From contig NZ_AJXU01000037.1 in the NCBI RefSeq assembly GCF_000264315.1, forward strand, positions 124,001 to 188,000: a DNA stretch of 64,000 nucleotides. Reading direction: 5' to 3'. The DNA is from Rhodanobacter fulvus Jip2. Its GTDB lineage: Bacteria > Pseudomonadota > Gammaproteobacteria > Xanthomonadales > Rhodanobacteraceae. The notes beneath the pieces are model-generated. The model searched no databases and was not told the DNA's origin. It worked only from the letters and a program-made list of their open reading frames with translations. The position numbers and the translations under genes are program-made. Of the stretch, positions 56,237-63,780 are shown piece after piece. Within the stretch, counting starts at the first letter, position 1. Each line of letters starts with the position of its first letter.

Positions 56237-57396
56237 GGCGCACTGCCGCCGCTGGCGGGGGCAGCTGCCGGCGCAGATGCCTGCCGCAACTGCGCCACCA
56301 GGTAGAAGCGCTCCTTGCCGGTGACCGCATCGGGCTGGATCGACCCCTGGAAGCTGGCGTCGGTGATCAGTGGCGAATCCTTCAAGGCATCCAGCAATCG
56401 TGCCGCCTGCGGACTCTGGCCCTGCATGCCGACCTGGCCATCGGTATCGATGCTCAGCCGCTCCAGCCAGGCGCTGTCGGGCAAACGCCGGGTGAGGTCG
56501 GCGAGCAGTGCCAGCATGGTCGTCGCATGCTGTTTGCGCTGCACCAGGAAACCGGCGGCGCCGGCGTTGTCCTGCAGTTGCTGGCGCAGCGCCAGCACCT
56601 GCTGCGCGTCGGCACGCATGCTTTCCACCTGCGCCTGCATCCGCACCAGCGCCTGCCGGCGGTTGTGCAGGTATTGGCCCAGCACCAGCAGCAGCAGCGC
56701 CAGGCAGGCCACCGCCAGCGCGCGATTCCAGCGGCGGCGCGGATGGACATGATGCGGCCGGCGCGCAGGCGGCAGCAGGTTGATGCCCAGCCGTCCATTC
56801 CCCTCGGGCAGATCCACCGCATCGACGACCACACCGGCGGCCGCAAGGCGCGCCAGCAGCGGATCGAGCGTGTTGCGCGGCGTGGCCAGCAGCTCGGCAC
56901 GGAAATGCGCGGCAGCGACCGGCGTCGGCGACGTCAGCTCGCGTGCGGCGTAGTGCACCTGTTCGACGGTGAAGGGGGTTTGCCGATCCATTTCGAACGC
57001 CATCACCTGGGCCAGCTGGCTGCGCGCGGCCAGCGGCAGCGAGACGGCGCGCCGCAATACCGTACGTGGATCCAACAGCAAGGCGAGGCGGCGGTCTTCG
57101 CGATCCACCGCCTGCAGCGCCGTGCTCACCGCCGCGCGTTGTGCGAGCGCATCGTCATCGGCGAACCAGCGCGCCAGCGGCTGCGCCTCGCCGGCGCGGC
57201 GCAAGGTCCACTGTCCCTGCTCCTGCTGCAACAGATGCCACGCCACGCCATCGCCCAGCCAGCCACGCCAGCGCGGCGGCGGCAGCGCGCGCAATTCAGT
57301 GCCCCACCAGGCGAAAAACGCCGGGCACGGCGAGCTGCGCCAGGCCTGGCGCAGGCGATCGCGCCCTGACCGCAGTGGCGGCAGCAGCGTATTCAT
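56233..57396 (-). CDS. gspL: Type II secretion protein GspL
   Basis: 387 residues: a cytoplasmic actin-like domain (about 1-220), one transmembrane helix (LAVACLALLLLVLGQYL) and a periplasmic PilN-like domain. It recruits the ATPase GspE to the membrane. The cytoplasmic part is divergent but contains RRAVSLPLAARSQLAQVMAF. An ATG at 57396 overlaps the gspK stop by four bases. Confidence 0.86.
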   Translation of the reverse strand: MNTLLPPLRSGRDRLRQAWRSSPCPAFFAWWGTELRALPPPRWRGWLGDGVAWHLLQQEQGQWTLRRAGEAQPLARWFADDDALAQRAAVSTALQAVDREDRRLALLLDPRTVLRRAVSLPLAARSQLAQVMAFEMDRQTPFTVEQVHYAARELTSPTPVAAAHFRAELLATPRNTLDPLLARLAAAGVVVDAVDLPEGNGRLGINLLPPARRPHHVHPRRRWNRALAVACLALLLLVLGQYLHNRRQALVRMQAQVESMRADAQQVLALRQQLQDNAGAAGFLVQRKQHATTMLALLADLTRRLPDSAWLERLSIDTDGQVGMQGQSPQAARLLDALKDSPLITDASFQGSIQPDAVTGKERFYLVAQLRQASAPAAAPASGGSAP

Positions 57397-58259
57397 TCCT
57401 CGTTTCCCTCCTGCCAGCGCAGCACTGCGTAAGGTTGCGCCGCGGCGCTCCCCGCCCGCCAACGAACCGTGGCCCGCAATACGGCTTGCGTGCCATCCGC
57501 TAGCGTAGCTTGCGAACGCACGCTGTGGGTGACTCCGCTGCCAACAGTCAGCTCGGGATCGGCGGCATTGCGCCGCCGCGCAGCCTGGATTTCCCGCGCG
57601 CGCTCGGCGGTCATGCCGGGAATCGCAGCCAGCGCCAGCGACGTGGCCACGTTCGGGTCCGGGCTGGCCTGGCCCGACCACAGGGTGATGTGCGGCGCCA
57701 GCGAGCGGTACAGCGCCGGCGTCATGCCCAGCACCATCTGCAACTCCTCGACGCTGGCGAAGGATCCGTGCCGCGGCCGGTAGTGTCGACCCGCCGTGGC
57801 GTATCCCGCGGCATCGCCGGCCGTGCCATCGAACGCGGAAGGACTGCGCCATTCCACCACCCGCATGGCCAGCGCCTGCGCCGCATCCGGGGCCGCGCCC
57901 GCAGCCCGGAACAGGCCCTGCAAAACCTCCGGCGAAGCGCTGTTCAAGTCAACCTTGCCGCTCTCGTCGACGGCCCGAATCCGCACTTCGGCGCCGTCGT
58001 AGGACATCGTGTACAGACGGCCATCGCCGATCCAGCGCTGTTTGGCGCGCGTATCGTGCAACCCGCGCAAGGCACGCATGAGGCCCGCTTCGGCGGCGTA
58101 ATGGGCGCGGGTCTGCGCCAGTTGATGGCGCGCCAGCACCGCCTCGGTATGCACCACGGCCGCATAGCCGCCCAACAGCACGGCCAGCAGCGCGCACGCC
58201 CACAGCACCAGCAGCAAGGCCACGCCGCGCTGCCGTCGGGGTGATGGACACGCGCGCAT
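57393..58259 (-). CDS. gspK: Minor pseudopilin GspK
   Basis: 288 residues. The leader is short and ordinary: twelve residues ending QRG, followed by VALLLVLWACALLAVLLGG, with the typical lack of Glu5. The mature domain contains DLNSASPEVLQGL, two SAM-like helix regions and NVATSLALAAIPGM, typical of GspK. It caps the pseudopilus. The start overlaps gspJ by one base (TGATG). It is the one pseudopilin here without a heptad repeat in its 5' end. Confidence 0.92.
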   Translation of the reverse strand: MRACPSPRRQRGVALLLVLWACALLAVLLGGYAAVVHTEAVLARHQLAQTRAHYAAEAGLMRALRGLHDTRAKQRWIGDGRLYTMSYDGAEVRIRAVDESGKVDLNSASPEVLQGLFRAAGAAPDAAQALAMRVVEWRSPSAFDGTAGDAAGYATAGRHYRPRHGSFASVEELQMVLGMTPALYRSLAPHITLWSGQASPDPNVATSLALAAIPGMTAERAREIQAARRRNAADPELTVGSGVTHSVRSQATLADGTQAVLRATVRWRAGSAAAQPYAVLRWQEGNEE

Positions 58260-59074
58260 CACTGCGCCCCCATGCGACGGATCGGCAAGGTCGACGCGCC
58301 GGGCCCGGCGTCGCCGGCCTCCACGCGCAGCGGCACCTCCAGCGTGGGCCAGGACACCATGCCATCCAGCTGCAACTCCACCCGCACCAGCCGCGGCAAC
58401 GCGCGGCCATCGGGCCAGCTGGCAAGCCACGGCGTGGCGCGACCCCGCACGTCGACGCCGCGATAGCTGAAACGACCAGCCCGCACGTGATCGACCAGCA
58501 CCTGTGGCTCGCCCATCGGCTGCGGCTCATTGCCATCGGGCGGCAGCAGGGCCAGACCAAGCTCCAGCCGCAAGCCACCCGTGCCGTCATCAACCAGACG
58601 CAGCGTTTGCAACTGCGGCCCCAGTTGGCCGAGGTAACCCGGCAACGGCGCCACGTAACGCAGCCGTTGCGGCGCGCCATCGACAACCAGCGGCGTACCG
58701 TGGTCATCGTGATCGATCGTCTGACTCAGCGCCTGCGCCAGTTCACGACGCAGCAACTGTTGCGCCGCGCGCACCTGGTCGAGCCGCTCGATACGCGCAT
58801 TGCCGGCGTGCACGCTGCGCGTGGCGATGCGGACGCCGGCGTAGACACCCAACATCAGCAAGGCCAGCAAGGCCAGCGATGCCAGGACTTCGAGGAGGGT
58901 GAAGCCGTTGGCGCGCGTTGCGCGCCGGGAATGGGGAATGGGGAATGGGGAATGGGAAGAGCGAAAAGCTGGTCTCGACGCGCCTTTCCTATTCCCTATT
59001 CCCCATTCCCTATTCCCCCCGGGCGCGCCCCGCCGAACCCCGGTTCTCATCGCACCCTCACCGCGCCCGGTCAT
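58259..59074 (-). CDS. gspJ: Minor pseudopilin GspJ with long repeat-encoded leader
   Basis: About 271 residues. The prepilin site is RATRANG|FTLLEVLASLALLALL; the mature part has GspJ features (RLDQVRAAQQLLRRELAQAL). The start ATG at 59074 overlaps the gspI stop (ATGA). Between it and the site lie 57 residues, most of them encoded by a GGGAATG inverted repeat at 58927-59021. No ATG, GTG or TTG lies in frame in the last 40 or so codons before the site. GspJ normally has a leader of fewer than 15 residues. Confidence 0.85.
   Translation of the reverse strand: MTGRGEGAMRTGVRRGAPGGNREWGIGNRKGASRPAFRSSHSPFPIPHSRRATRANGFTLLEVLASLALLALLMLGVYAGVRIATRSVHAGNARIERLDQVRAAQQLLRRELAQALSQTIDHDDHGTPLVVDGAPQRLRYVAPLPGYLGQLGPQLQTLRLVDDGTGGLRLELGLALLPPDGNEPQPMGEPQVLVDHVRAGRFSYRGVDVRGRATPWLASWPDGRALPRLVRVELQLDGMVSWPTLEVPLRVEAGDAGPGASTLPIRRMGAQ
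58927..59021. repeat. Heptad inverted repeat inside gspJ
   Basis: Four GGGAATG units run from 58927 to 58957; TATTCCC-type units run from about 58989 to 59017. Flanking CGCGCGTTGCGCGC lies on the cleavage-site side. The reading frame stays open across the whole element. Confidence 0.85.
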
Positions 59075-59652
59075 GGCGTCGGCGCCATCGGGTTGGAACC
59101 GGGGCCGGTCGAAAGCAGGCGCAGGGTGCGGAAATTCGCCGTGTGCGGATGCGCTGCCGGCCCCCAACTGACCCGCAGATCCAGTTGGTAAAGCTGCAGC
59201 GGTGTCTGGTCGTCAGCCGCAGCGGCATGCCATGGCGTCACGTCGAGCTGCCACTCGAATTTGCGATCGAACCGTCCGGTGCTGTGACCCGGCTGCAACG
59301 GCTCGACCACGTACGCGCTGTCGAGCTTGCTGCGCGCCCACATCGCCGCCTCGCTGGCATCGGCCGCCTGCCCGGTGAGCCCAATCGCGCCGCCCGCGAC
59401 CTGCATCAATACCGCGAAGGCGATGCCGAGCAGCAGGATCGCGGCGAGGACTTCGAGGAGGGTGAAACCGTTGGCGCGCGTAGCGCGCGCCCGGGAATCG
59501 GGAATCGGGAATCGGGAATGGTTTGAATGCAGGGAATGGGGAACGGGGAATGGGGAATGGGAAGAGCGAAAAGCTGGTGCTCGCCTGCCTTTCCTATTCC
59601 CTATTCCCCATTCCCTATTCCCGGGCGCGCCCCGCCAACTTTCGGCTTTCAT
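59071..59652 (-). CDS. gspI: Minor pseudopilin GspI with long repeat-encoded leader
   Basis: About 193 residues. The prepilin site is RATRANG|FTLLEVLAAILLLGIAF, and the mature domain matches GspI (WARSKLDSAYVVEPLQPG). The ATG at 59652 overlaps the gspH stop by four bases. The leader would be 62 residues, translated from a double heptad array at 59493-59628. No ATG, GTG or TTG lies in frame between residue 1 and the site. Confidence 0.85.
   Translation of the reverse strand: MKAESWRGAPGNREWGIGNRKGRRAPAFRSSHSPFPVPHSLHSNHSRFPIPDSRARATRANGFTLLEVLAAILLLGIAFAVLMQVAGGAIGLTGQAADASEAAMWARSKLDSAYVVEPLQPGHSTGRFDRKFEWQLDVTPWHAAAADDQTPLQLYQLDLRVSWGPAAHPHTANFRTLRLLSTGPGSNPMAPTP
59493..59628. repeat. Double heptad inverted repeat inside gspI
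   Basis: Two left arrays stand in tandem: GGGAATC units at about 59493-59520 and GGGAATG/GGGAACG units at about 59532-59561, facing one right arm at about 59592-59622. It is longer than the other copies by one array, an expansion in a multiple of three bases. Confidence 0.8.
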
Positions 59653-60188
59653 CGAACCACCACCGCGCCCGTAAGCCACGCCACATCGACCCGCCACTGA
59701 CGCTGGCCGCGCTGCACCACGATGTGGCCGCCAGTGGAGCTGCCGTCGGGGAAGAAGCGGATGCGGCCGGTGTGGTCGTCGGGCGCATCCTCGCGGGCGC
59801 TGGTGATGCTCAACTTCATGTCCGGCGGCAGCTGCACGGTTTGTCCGCGCGCATTGCGCCAACGGTTGTCGCGGGTATCGAGATCGAACACCTGCGCCCT
59901 GCCGCGCACGATCGCCTGGGCGCGAGTGGCGCGCAGCGCGGCGGCCAGGTCGGCACTGGCCGCCGCGGCGCGGGCGCCGGCCAAGCCCTGCGTCACCGAG
60001 AACGCCACCGCCGCCGTGGCCACGCCGATCAGCAGGATCACGGCCAGCATTTCCAGGAGGGTGAAGCCGTTGGCGCGCGTTGCGCGCCCGGGAATCGGGA
60101 ATCGGGAATCGGGAATGGGAAGAGCGAAAAGCCGGTGCTTGCCGGCCTTTCCGATTCCCGATTCCCCATTCCCGATTCCCGGCCTCAC
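59649..60188 (-). CDS. gspH: Minor pseudopilin GspH with long repeat-encoded leader
   Basis: About 179 residues. The prepilin site is RATRANG|FTLLEMLAVILLIGV and the mature domain fits GspH (AALRATRAQAIVRGRAQVF). The likely start is GTG at 60188 overlapping the gspG stop (GTGA); a TTG at 60194 is possible. The leader would be 41 residues, encoded by the repeat at 60089-60182. No other ATG, GTG or TTG lies in frame before the site. Confidence 0.83.
   Translation of the reverse strand: MRPGIGNGESGIGKAGKHRLFALPIPDSRFPIPGRATRANGFTLLEMLAVILLIGVATAAVAFSVTQGLAGARAAAASADLAAALRATRAQAIVRGRAQVFDLDTRDNRWRNARGQTVQLPPDMKLSITSAREDAPDDHTGRIRFFPDGSSTGGHIVVQRGQRQWRVDVAWLTGAVVVR
60089..60182. repeat. Heptad inverted repeat inside gspH
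   Basis: GGGAATC units at 60089-60118 are mirrored by GATTCCC units at about 60150-60182. The outer end reaches the gspG stop codon. Confidence 0.85.
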
Positions 60189-60718
60189 TGCCAACTACCC
60201 ACATCCTTGCTGTAGCCGTCGCCGCCGGGCTTGCCGTCCTGGCCGTAGAAAACCAGGTCGAAATTGCCGTGTTGGCCGGGCGCGGCGTAGCCGAACGCGT
60301 GGCCCCAGGGGTCCAGCAACTGCGATGCCTTGAGATACGGGCGCTGCCAGTTCGGCGCATTGGCCGGCTTGGTCACCAGATCCTGCAATTGGCGCGGCGG
60401 TGAGCCGTTGTCCAGCGCATAGCTGTCGATCGCCTGACCCAGCACCTGCAACTGCACCTTGCCCGCGCCGTACTTGCCCTTGTCCACACTGTTGCCCACC
60501 TGCCGCACCACGATGGTGCCGACGATGCCGATCAACACGATCACGGCCAGCATTTCGAGGAGGGTGAAGCCGTTGGCGCGCGTTGCGCGCCCGGGAATGG
60601 GGAATGGGGAATGGGGAATCGCAACAGCGGAAAGCCGGGGCTGGCGCGCCTTTCCCATTCCCCATTCCCTATTCCCTATTCCCTGCCCCACCAACGCCAA
60701 AAACTTCGCCATTGCCAT
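60185..60718 (-). CDS. gspG: Major pseudopilin GspG with long repeat-encoded leader
   Basis: About 177 residues. AGGAGG just before the ATG at 60718 (a second ATG at 60712 is spaced better) marks the start. The first residues, MAMAKFLALVG, are followed by repeat-encoded sequence and then RATRANG|FTLLEMLAVIVLIGI, a 50-residue leader. The mature part has GspG features (KVQLQVLGQAIDSYALDNG, LLDPWGHAFGY, GGDGYSKDV). An in-frame ATG at leader residue 21 would leave 30 residues. It is the main subunit of the pseudopilus. Confidence 0.9.
   Translation of the reverse strand: MAMAKFLALVGQGIGNREWGMGKARQPRLSAVAIPHSPFPIPGRATRANGFTLLEMLAVIVLIGIVGTIVVRQVGNSVDKGKYGAGKVQLQVLGQAIDSYALDNGSPPRQLQDLVTKPANAPNWQRPYLKASQLLDPWGHAFGYAAPGQHGNFDLVFYGQDGKPGGDGYSKDVGSWQ
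60593..60683. repeat. Heptad inverted repeat inside gspG
   Basis: GGGAATG units at 60593-60619 face ATTCCCT units at about 60651-60683. It separates a strong ribosome site and apparently original start from the prepilin cleavage site. Confidence 0.85.
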
Positions 60719-60726
60719 ACTCCTCC

Positions 60727-61944
60727 TTACTGGATATTGCTGGTCAAACTCAACAGCGGCAGCAGAATCGCGGCCATGATGATCGCCACCAGCACCGTCA
60801 TCACAATGGTCAGCGCAGGCACCAGCGCGGCCAGCAGGCGGTCGATGGCGCGGCGCGATTCGATCTCGAAGGTGTCTGCCACTTTCAGCAGCATGCCGTC
60901 GAGCTGGCCGGCTTCCTCGCCCACCTGCACCATCTGCAACGCCAACCGTGGAAACAGGCTCGATTGCGCCAGCGCCAGGCCCAGGCCGGAGCCGCCCTTG
61001 ACCTGTTCGTGGGCGCTGGCCAGCGCCGTATCCAGGGCGCGGTTGCCGGTGACCTGGCGCGCGATGGCCAGCGCACTCAACAGCGGCACGCCGTTTTTCA
61101 GCAGGGTGCCCAGGGTGCGGGCGATGCGCGCGGTTTCGACTTTCAGCAGCAGCGGGCCGATCCAGCGCAGGCGCAGCAGGCGGGCATGCCACGCCAGCCG
61201 CGCCTGCGGATCGCGCAGCCGCGCGCGCCACGCCAGCGCGCCACCGATCAGCAACAGCGCGATCAGCCACCACCACGCCTGCAAGGTGTTGCCCAGCAGC
61301 AGCACCGCGCGGGTGATCCAGGGAATCGGTACCTGCATGTCCTGGAAGATCGGCACGAATTGCGGCACCACGTAGGCCAGCAGCAGCACCAGCGAACCCA
61401 GCACGCCCACCAACAGGAACGCCGGGTAGATCAGCGCGTTGATGACGCTGCCGCGCAGTTGCTGGGCGCGCTCCAGGTAATCGGCCAGCCGGCGCAGGGT
61501 TTCCTCCAGCGAACCGCCCGCCTCGCCCGCGCGCACCAGGCTCACGTACAGGCGGGGAAATACGCCGTGCTCCTCGTCCAGCGCGGAAGAAAGCGTATTG
61601 CCGCCACGCACGCGCTCGCGTACGCGCTCGATCAGTTTCCTGGCGCGCTCGCTTTCGGGCAGATCCAGCAGGATGCCCAACGCCCGGTCCAGCGGCTGGC
61701 CGGCGCCGAGCAGGGTCGCCAGTTGATGGGTGAACTGGGCCAGCTGGTCGCCGCTGAACGGGCCGCGGCGGAATAGCGCGCTCGCTGCGCCGCCGGTTTC
61801 ATCGGCATGCGCCGGCTGGGCTTCCAGCGGTGTGTGGCCCTGCTCCTGCAGGCGTGAGATCACGTCGCCGACGCTGGCTGCTTCCATCTGGCCGTGCAGC
61901 GTTTCGCCGGCGGCGGTGATGGCTTTGTAGCTGTATTGGCTCAC
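60727..61944 (-). CDS. gspF: Type II secretion platform protein GspF
   Basis: 405-residue polytopic protein with two T2SSF domains, three or so transmembrane helices (one near 165-195, one near 215-235, one at the C-terminus). The N-terminus SQYSYKAITAAGETLHGQ matches the family with a GTG start at 61944; an upstream in-frame GTG at 62016 would read through the heptad repeat. Characteristic motifs include RAGEAGGSLEETLRRLADYLERAQQ. The stop overlaps the gspG ribosome site. Confidence 0.94.
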   Translation of the reverse strand: MSQYSYKAITAAGETLHGQMEAASVGDVISRLQEQGHTPLEAQPAHADETGGAASALFRRGPFSGDQLAQFTHQLATLLGAGQPLDRALGILLDLPESERARKLIERVRERVRGGNTLSSALDEEHGVFPRLYVSLVRAGEAGGSLEETLRRLADYLERAQQLRGSVINALIYPAFLLVGVLGSLVLLLAYVVPQFVPIFQDMQVPIPWITRAVLLLGNTLQAWWWLIALLLIGGALAWRARLRDPQARLAWHARLLRLRWIGPLLLKVETARIARTLGTLLKNGVPLLSALAIARQVTGNRALDTALASAHEQVKGGSGLGLALAQSSLFPRLALQMVQVGEEAGQLDGMLLKVADTFEIESRRAIDRLLAALVPALTIVMTVLVAIIMAAILLPLLSLTSNIQ

Positions 61945-61962
61945 TGGGGTTGGCCCGTGAAC

Positions 61963-62058
61963 CGGGAGTAGGGAGTAGGGAATAGGGAATGGGCAAAGCA
62001 GCCGGCGGCGAGGCACTGGCTTCTGCCCTTCCTATTCCCTACTCCCCATTCCCTATTC
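61963..62058. repeat. Heptad inverted repeat between gspE and gspF
   Basis: GGGAGTA/GGGAATA units at about 61964-61994 face ATTCCCTACTCCCC units at about 62031-62057. It fills most of the 114-base gap. This copy uses A-variant heptads, unlike the G/C variants of the pseudopilin copies. Confidence 0.82.
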
Positions 62059-63780
62059 TCAGCCTTCCTGCGTAACACGCAGCACCTCCTCCAGCGTGGT
62101 GATGCCGGCGACGGCTTTGGCGATGCCGTCTTCGTACATCGTGCGCATGCCTTCGGCGCGGGCGGCGCGTTCGATGGCGCCGGCGTCGGCGCGCTGCATC
62201 ACCAGGCGGCGCAGCGGGTCGGTCATGGGCAGGAACTCCAGGATCGCCTGGCGGCCGCGGTAGCCGCTGGGGTTGGCGGCGCTGGTGCCGGGTTTCCACA
62301 GCCGGATGGGACGTTCGTCGGTGTATTTCGCCAGTTCGAACTGGGCGATGACTTCGGGCGCGGGTTCGTACGCCACGGCGGTTTCCGGATCGAGCGTGCG
62401 CACCAGCCGCTGCGCCAGGATGCCGTTGACGGTGGAGCCGAGCAGGTAATCCTCCACGCCCATGTCCAGCAGCCGCGCGATGCCGCCGGCGGCGGAGTTG
62501 GTGTGCAACGTGGACAGCACCAGGTGGCCGGTGAGCGCGGACTGGATGGCGATGCGGCAGGTTTCCAGGTCGCGCATTTCGCCGATCATGATCACGTCCG
62601 GATCCTGCCGCACGATGGAGCGCAGCGCGCCGGCGAAATCCAGCCCGATCTGCGGCTTCACCTGGATCTGGTTGATGCCTTCGAGCTGGTATTCGACCGG
62701 GTCCTCGACGGTGATGATTTTCACGTCGGGCGTGTTGATCCGCGACAGCGCGGTATACAGCGTGGTGGTCTTGCCCGAGCCGGTGGGGCCGGTGACCAGC
62801 AGGATGCCGTGCGGGCGTTGCAGCACGTCGATGAAGCGCTGCTGGAAGCTGTCGGTGAAGCCCAGCGCGGCGAAATCGAACACCACCGATTCGCGATCCA
62901 GGATGCGCATCACCACCGACTCGCCGAAGCTGGTCGGCATGGTGGACACGCGCAGGTCCAACTCCTTGCCCTGCACCCGCAACTGGATGCGGCCGTCCTG
63001 CGGCAGGCGGCGCTCGGCGATGTTCATGCGCGCCATGATCTTCACCCGCGAGATCACCGCGGCGGTGGACGACGAGGGCGGCGCCTCCACTTCGTGCAGC
63101 ACGCCGTCGATGCGGTAGCGCACTTTCAGCTGGTTTTCGAACGGCTCGATATGGACGTCCGAAGCGCGCTGCTCCACCGCGCGCTGCAGGATCAGGTTGA
63201 CCAGCCGGATCACGGGTGCCTCGGAGGCCAGGTCGCGCAGGTGCTCGACGTCGTCTTCTTCGGCCGCGCCGCCGTCCAGGTTCTCCACGATGGTGCCCAT
63301 CGCCGAACGACCGCTGCCGTAATAGCGCTCGATCAGGCCGTCGATGTCCGAACGCAAGCCGATGCGCAACGCCACCGGCCGCCCGGCCGCCAGCTCCACC
63401 GCCTGGCGCGGATAGGGATCGGCCGGATCGGCCACCACCAAGGCCAGGCCCGACGCGTCGTGCACCGGCACCACGTGCTGTTGTTTGAGAAAGCGCAGGG
63501 ATAGGTCAAGCTCCGCCGGCGGCAACTCCGGCGCATCACGCGCGGCCAGCAGCGGCACCTGCAGCAGCTCGGCCCAGGCTTCGGCCAAGTCGCGCTCGGA
63601 GACCAGGCCCAGACGCGCCAGCAGGGAGGTCAACGTGCCTTCGGGCGACTCCTCGTGCAGGCGCCGGGCGCGGCCCAGGTCGGACTCCTTCAAACGCCCG
63701 CGGGCTACCAGCAACGCGCACGCCTGCACGTCGTCGACGGCCATGTCGCGTGGTTGCGCAGGGCTGGACAAGGCCGACAT
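62059..63780 (-). CDS. gspE: Type II secretion ATPase GspE
   Basis: 573-residue hexameric ATPase driving pseudopilus assembly. An N1-type domain (about 15-150) is followed by the ATPase core: Walker A GPTGSGKTTTLYTAL, Asp box ITVEDPVEYQL, Walker B IVRQDPDVIMIGEMRD, His box LTGHLVLSTLHTN. The C-terminal region lacks the tetracysteine (CXXC...CXXC) zinc motif of many GspE proteins. GGAGGA stands six bases before the ATG. It is the first gene of the operon. Confidence 0.95.
   Translation of the reverse strand: MSALSSPAQPRDMAVDDVQACALLVARGRLKESDLGRARRLHEESPEGTLTSLLARLGLVSERDLAEAWAELLQVPLLAARDAPELPPAELDLSLRFLKQQHVVPVHDASGLALVVADPADPYPRQAVELAAGRPVALRIGLRSDIDGLIERYYGSGRSAMGTIVENLDGGAAEEDDVEHLRDLASEAPVIRLVNLILQRAVEQRASDVHIEPFENQLKVRYRIDGVLHEVEAPPSSSTAAVISRVKIMARMNIAERRLPQDGRIQLRVQGKELDLRVSTMPTSFGESVVMRILDRESVVFDFAALGFTDSFQQRFIDVLQRPHGILLVTGPTGSGKTTTLYTALSRINTPDVKIITVEDPVEYQLEGINQIQVKPQIGLDFAGALRSIVRQDPDVIMIGEMRDLETCRIAIQSALTGHLVLSTLHTNSAAGGIARLLDMGVEDYLLGSTVNGILAQRLVRTLDPETAVAYEPAPEVIAQFELAKYTDERPIRLWKPGTSAANPSGYRGRQAILEFLPMTDPLRRLVMQRADAGAIERAARAEGMRTMYEDGIAKAVAGITTLEEVLRVTQEG

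Follow-up and report, generated by a model that had tools for sequence, protein, structure and literature searches.

Several described systems bear on the repeats considered here. In Xanthomonas, Rehm et al. 2015 (PMC4692102) described repeats of the heptamer GGGAATC (GGGANTN), with four units preferred, and counted 70 cases of inverted heptamer pairs in Xcc and 75 in Xac. These repeats are 89-93% intergenic, copies in coding sequence are under-represented, the gene xpsF is labelled as repeat-associated, and consensus repeat sequences form G-quadruplexes in vitro. Rickettsia palindromic elements (RPEs) and intragenic miniature inverted-repeat transposable elements are palindromes of about 100-200 bp that lie in frame and open in protein genes and are tolerated there (PMC2229807). 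The leaders of prepilins, or class III signal peptides, are reported to be 6-26 residues long (Berry and Pelicic, PMC4471445), are hydrophilic and cytoplasmic, and are removed by prepilin peptidase (PMC4471445, PMC10191384), although S. sanguinis pilins are mentioned as having very long ones (PMC10191384). Here we analyse a stretch of 64,000 nt from Rhodanobacter fulvus Jip2 (contig NZ_AJXU01000037.1, positions 124,001 to 188,000; hereafter the window), in which an inverted repeat of GGGAATN heptads, about 94 nt long, lies between the start codon and the prepilin site of each of four pseudopilin genes of a type II secretion system (T2SS), gspG, gspH, gspI and gspJ. We propose, with a probability that we put at about 0.8, that these repeats are translated as part of the pre-pseudopilin leaders, and that the cleaved leader offers in-frame palindromic repeats a safe harbour, one that would have been colonised repeatedly.

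The window elements share with the Xanthomonas repeats the heptad, the preference for four units, the inverted pairs and a host among related bacteria, but whereas the Xanthomonas repeats are mostly intergenic, the window copies sit in coding leaders. With RPEs they share the palindromic structure, the open frames and the in-frame fusion within protein genes. In contrast to RPEs, which are described as staying in the working protein (guanylate kinase), the inserts described here lie in a leader predicted to be removed, occur at one recurrent site and stem from more than one repeat family. Compared with class III signal peptides, the leaders have the expected hydrophilic character, positive charge, Gly before FTLLE and N_methyl motif, but are repeat-derived and have a predicted length of 41-62 residues. 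The sequence-only reading of this DNA knew of no description of such an arrangement. This holds for the location in leaders: a literature search of titles and abstract openings, a scope outside which most subscription journals lie, found no description of repeats in pseudopilin leaders, and in the main text of Rehm et al. (PMC4692102) 'secretion' occurs 0 times, 'xps' once (in xpsF) and 'pilin' in reference titles only. It does not hold for the repeats themselves, which that paper describes. The repeats and the tolerance of in-frame palindromes are thus already known; newly noticed is the place, a leader that is predicted to be cut away after translation.

The window operon lies on the minus strand in the order gspE-F-G-H-I-J-K (Table 1), and gspG, gspH, gspI and gspJ all have the N_methyl prepilin motif (Pfam) within this T2SS gene order, as T2SS pseudopilins should. 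An inverted repeat in an open frame between start and prepilin site had been claimed for each of the four, and our results confirm it. The window contains 42 copies of GGGAATS where 15.3 would be expected, a count reached by 0 of 100 shuffles, and 29 of these copies fall within the four leader elements or a fifth element, more divergent, that lies between gspE and gspF. This fifth element perhaps occupies the same place as the xpsF-associated repeat of Xanthomonas. A plain GGGAATC...GATTCCC pattern matches nowhere in the window, as the adjoining arms consist of mixed heptads and are spaced more widely. The leader lengths originally given (about 50, 41, 62 and 57 residues, from starts at 60718, 60188, 59652 and 59074) check out, the AGGAGG of gspG and the GTGA or ATGA overlaps of the other three genes can be read directly in the sequence, and gspK, as had been stated, has an ordinary leader.

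The coding frame is free of stops across all four leaders (4/4), as it is in RPE insertions. Both other frames contain stops in gspG, gspI and gspJ, while in gspH the sole stop in another frame is the coupling site. It had further been stated that gspH, gspI and gspJ have no in-frame NTG codon after the coupled start. This is correct for gspH and gspI only; gspJ has a second in-frame ATG at codon 9 (59050), which is still upstream of the repeat and would allow a leader of 49 residues. In gspG, in-frame NTG codons precede the repeat and an ATG lies within it (codon 21).

Comparison of the gspG-J 5' ends in related genomes, which the sequence-only reading had proposed, showed that the frame is conserved through the elements. 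The set comprised 144 loci: 43 of the 80 found by a search of named relatives (37 were unused), 100 stretches of other relatives, which represent part of the genomes matched in the relative searches, and the window. A gspG was recognised in 140 of these (L143, L146, L166 and L167 were dropped), and removal of 23 duplicates with identical gspG left 117 non-redundant loci. The closest named relative by GspG is Rhodanobacter sp. Root480, 88% identical in the best segment. Two-armed heptad elements are present in 62 leaders of the overlapping genes in these 117 loci (31 gspH, 23 gspI, 8 gspJ). Counted from the upstream stop, the first mature codon lay at a distance of 2 modulo 3 in 59 of the 62 (binomial against 1/3, 8e-25, uncorrected for relatedness). 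As relatives share ancestry, distinct gene-and-length classes were also counted over all 62 leaders, and 36 of 39 were in one phase (binomial 1.9e-14). All but one of the 59 in-phase leaders have an in-frame, overlapping NTGA start, the other (L076) having an ATG at the third base of the stop; in the three out-of-phase leaders an in-frame ATG begins 3-6 nt past the first base of the upstream stop. Overall, 60 of the 62 leaders, those of the window included, are open from a start that overlaps the upstream stop or lies ≤3 nt from it. Beyond the coupling site, the coding frame contained a stop in 2 of 58 leaders, compared to 13 and 18 of 58 for the other two frames. The gspG gene does not overlap its upstream neighbour; in 17 of the 18 loci whose gspG bears an element, an in-frame NTG follows the gspF stop and precedes the first arm.

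The gspE/gspF gap provides a control, as gspF has its own start. Eight two-armed elements in this gap were split 4:4 between two phases (Fisher 0.002). The conserved phase in the gspH, gspI and gspJ leaders, with no such rule in the gap, makes it very probable that ribosomes read through the heptad elements, entirely or for the greater part, and strongly supports the long translated leaders first read from the window. The same data bear on another suggestion of that reading, that translation begins at a non-standard codon (for example an ATT from the ATTCCC of the repeat) just before the prepilin site, so that the leader would have about 10 residues and the repeat would be 5' untranslated RNA. 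Each of the four window genes does have in-frame ATT codons 10-13 residues ahead of its cleavage site, and a standard start is missing after the repeat in gspH, gspI and gspJ and after the last heptad in 58 of the 62 element leaders. However, an untranslated element would not need to keep phase, since insertion lengths could then vary by 1 or 2 nt, and phase is kept in both the leaders and the length classes while the gap elements divide evenly. A non-standard start is therefore unsupported, and we consider it very improbable.

If the leaders are translated, why should repeats accumulate in them? We scanned 44 operons (the 43 named loci and the window) around the gspG cleavage site, over up to 4.5 kb on its upstream and 5 kb on its downstream side; some loci were shorter than this span, and the definition of an arm was slightly stricter than in the phase count. 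Of 35 two-armed elements, 31 were in gspG-J leaders and 4 in the gspE/gspF gap, with none elsewhere in the scanned span. An element lies near gspG-J in 8 of 21 loci of the window's genus, in 14 of the 43 named loci, and in at least one locus of each of 8 of the 19 other genera of the family. Element-bearing leaders had a median of 42 residues (range 36-86, n=57), compared to 9 residues for heptad-free, coupled gspI and gspJ leaders (n=162), of which 147 had ≤26 residues and 15 had >26. In 57/57 element leaders the net charge of the 12 residues that end at the cleavage site was at least +1.

Other repeats are also found at this site. The gspH leader of R. glycinis (L066; same place as G111) contains a different repeat, also in phase, whose peptide matches that genome 15 times, a figure that includes the leader itself and some weak matches. 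In G108 the gspH leader contains another repeat and runs in phase with an ATGA start; a search with the peptide gave 50 matches, spread over roughly 38 places, with both palindrome strands counted. Elsewhere, the gspJ of L063 has an open leader of 289 residues, in phase with its ATGA start, with a tandem SQEQ tract and a PLTPTLSPNGRAVGGEG stretch, the latter presumably a common repeat peptide. The gspJ of L144 has a 51-residue leader of repeated VMKPA-like units, which is a different, tandem mode of lengthening.

Could the elements instead be regulatory? Hairpins near the starts, or a G-quadruplex in the G-rich arm, might tune the ratio of major to minor pseudopilins, which would be compatible with translation. 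The predicted folds are stable (-64 to -84 kcal/mol, z -3.8 to -7.6); in each of the four cases none of 200 shuffles was as stable, and the in vitro G-quadruplexes reported for such repeats (PMC4692102) would fit this role. Yet in 80 of the 117 gspG loci two-armed heptad elements are absent around gspG-J, the other 37 have one to four in varying genes, and the type, number and length of the repeats vary between relatives. Moreover, in the window gspG, the major subunit, carries the element just as the minor subunits do. We thus regard control of the pseudopilin ratio as decidedly unlikely to account for the arrangement.

The four window copies are similar to each other, which raises the possibility that they arose only by homologous exchange between paralogous 5' ends, without repeated insertion, so that their placement would reflect recombination between paralogues and not tolerance of the leader. 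The 31-nt 3' flank, which extends into FTLL, is identical in gspG, gspH and gspJ, and gspI and gspJ are 81% alike over the 52 nt of 5' flank before the element. The window leader elements score 113-156 against each other but no higher than 104 against 9 further inverted elements in the genome, two of which are partial, and the gspE/gspF copy is no closer to them (scores 72-80). Over all loci, the median similarity of elements was 74 for different genes of one genome, compared to 38 for the same gene in different genomes. Part of this similarity could be mimicked by genome-specific repeat subtypes, and exchange alone leaves unexplained the other repeats found in the same leaders of other genomes. 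As a sole cause, exchange between paralogues is therefore unlikely, but it may well add to colonisation of the leaders, and these similarities make local copying or gene conversion within the operon the likely route by which the window came to hold four copies.

Several observations weigh against translated leaders as a harbour for repeats. The 62 leaders are not 62 independent events, as they share ancestry, for which the length classes are a partial remedy. The gspE/gspF control is small, and the 67 gaps there that lack a two-armed element are themselves uneven, with one phase avoided (36:26:5). The gspH genes of L182 and L216 have an in-frame stop soon after the coupled start, with an ATG later, and the gspG of L069 has no start before the first arm. 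In-frame NTG codons are present at or after the first heptad in 36 of the 62 leaders, so that a standard start inside the element is possible in some genes, and after the last heptad in 4 of 62. In the R. glycinis gspH leader an in-frame ATG comes later than the repeat, and read-through is not required there. The predicted window leaders of 41-62 residues also exceed the published range of 6-26. For gspK, a two-armed element was found in 1 of 86 loci (L189, in NTGA phase), the gap was <60 nt in 83 of 86, and two long, heptad-free leaders share the NTGA phase. A search of the R. fulvus genome for prepilins gave 16 N_methyl matches, of which 4 are the window genes; of the 12 others 11 (all but L256) were readable, with 10 over the Pfam cut-off. 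These eleven prepilin-like genes have leaders of about 6-17 residues, as judged from the nearest plausible start, and heptads are absent from them. Such element-free prepilins and the rarity in gspK mean that cleavability alone does not predict insertion; gene overlap, proximity and recombination between paralogues probably matter too. A group of 68 long gspH, gspI and gspJ gaps (60-399 nt) that contain few heptads or none, of which 33 are open from an NTGA start, was not used as evidence because many gspH genes are not overlapped.

Taken with these points, the data favour the cleaved leader as the harbour, and a mechanism can be outlined. Each pre-pseudopilin would start upstream of the repeat and have a hydrophilic leader of 41-62 residues, about 31 or more of which would derive from the element. 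By analogy with the family, the leader would stay in the cytoplasm and prepilin peptidase would cut after the Gly that precedes FTLLE; the R. fulvus genome has one PF01478 (PilD-type) prepilin peptidase gene. As the peptidase would remove the leader, the mature pseudopilins would be normal. The overlaps of gspH, gspI and gspJ with their neighbours leave no intergenic room, and insertions into a leader that is cytoplasmic, hydrophilic and cleaved off would be nearly neutral if the frame is kept. The leader would thus be the coding stretch of the operon that tolerates insertions, given a kept frame and positive charge beside the cleavage site. Insertion would have occurred repeatedly and by more than one repeat family, and one element type would probably have spread among the four neighbouring leaders of the window.

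Table 1. Features of the gsp operon in the window (positions 1 to 64,000). Leader limits are predicted.
Feature	Position	Strand	Remarks
gspE	62059..63780	-	Provisionally named from gene order; relatives matched by tblastn
gspE/gspF-gap heptad element	61962..62060	-	Taken as non-coding
gspF	60727..61944	-	Start by eye, GTG AGC CAA TAC
gspG, major pseudopilin	60185..60718	-	T2SSG 8.7e-29 and N_methyl (Pfam); AGGAGG precedes ATG 60718
gspG leader	60569-60718	-	50 residues; mature protein begins at F, 60568
gspG leader, heptad inverted repeat	60590..60683	-	RNA fold z -3.8
gspH	59649..60188	-	GspH 6e-11 and N_methyl (Pfam); GTG 60188 overlaps gspG stop (GTGA)
gspH leader	60066-60188	-	41 residues, start to prepilin site
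gspH leader, heptad inverted repeat	60087..60180	-	RNA fold z -7.6
gspI	59071..59652	-	N_methyl (Pfam); ATGA-coupled start, ATG 59652
gspI leader	59467-59652	-	62 residues, start to prepilin site
gspI leader, heptad element	59491..59622	-	94-nt core 59529-59622, extra array 59493-59520; RNA fold z -4.9
gspJ	58259..59074	-	N_methyl (Pfam); ATGA-coupled start, ATG 59074; second ATG 59050
gspJ leader	58904-59074	-	57 residues, start to prepilin site
gspJ leader, heptad inverted repeat	58924..59017	-	RNA fold z -6.7
gspK	57393..58259	-	T2SSK (Pfam); TGATG overlap, ATG 58259; 12-residue, element-free leader (internal control)

Heptamer repeats of the Xanthomonas type are present throughout the R. 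fulvus genome. Three consecutive GGGANTN units gave 75 matches (overlapping ones counted) on 21 contigs, compared to 0 for a reversed control pattern. In the rest of the genome, 27 arrays were found in 22 of the 24 stretches examined. Of these, 15 lie outside any candidate open reading frame (ORF), and 3 are in a single gene, in stretches between its Pfam domains. The remaining 9 either overlap a candidate ORF in its 5' part or precede its Pfam domain, mostly before a likelier start. ORFs around these arrays were called by length and by G+C content at third codon positions, with Pfam checks for those of L266, L270, L277 and L279. The gene with three internal arrays (L270:947-3201, on C45) encodes a fusion of B12-binding, MeaB and mutase domains (Pfam), which we take to be isobutyryl-CoA-mutase-like. 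Two of its heptad arrays flank a linker, and it also has the third array and a palindromic insert, HPSPLGRG...PLSQGERG, all in frame; the insert had no further match in the R. fulvus genome beyond one weak one. A second cluster of four prepilin genes in the same genome (C51, 28389-29817) has short, heptad-free leaders and is perhaps a second T2SS-like or pilus set.

We lean slightly towards a broader statement, that selfish repeats have a general niche in prepilin leaders, which unrelated families would colonise time after time across Xanthomonadales. The peptidase would in effect remove the product of the repeat, and proteolysis would render an in-frame arrival harmless in a manner reminiscent of the splicing of inteins. 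If harbouring by the leader is correct, it would identify a protein site at which a bacterium absorbs mobile repeats at little cost. The 36-86 residues of the 57 element leaders, compared to the 6-26 reported, suggest that class III leaders have no tight upper limit of length. Programs that call genes or predict leaders on the expectation of short prepilin leaders may misplace such starts, and the leaders would offer natural length variants for probing how prepilin peptidase reads its substrates.

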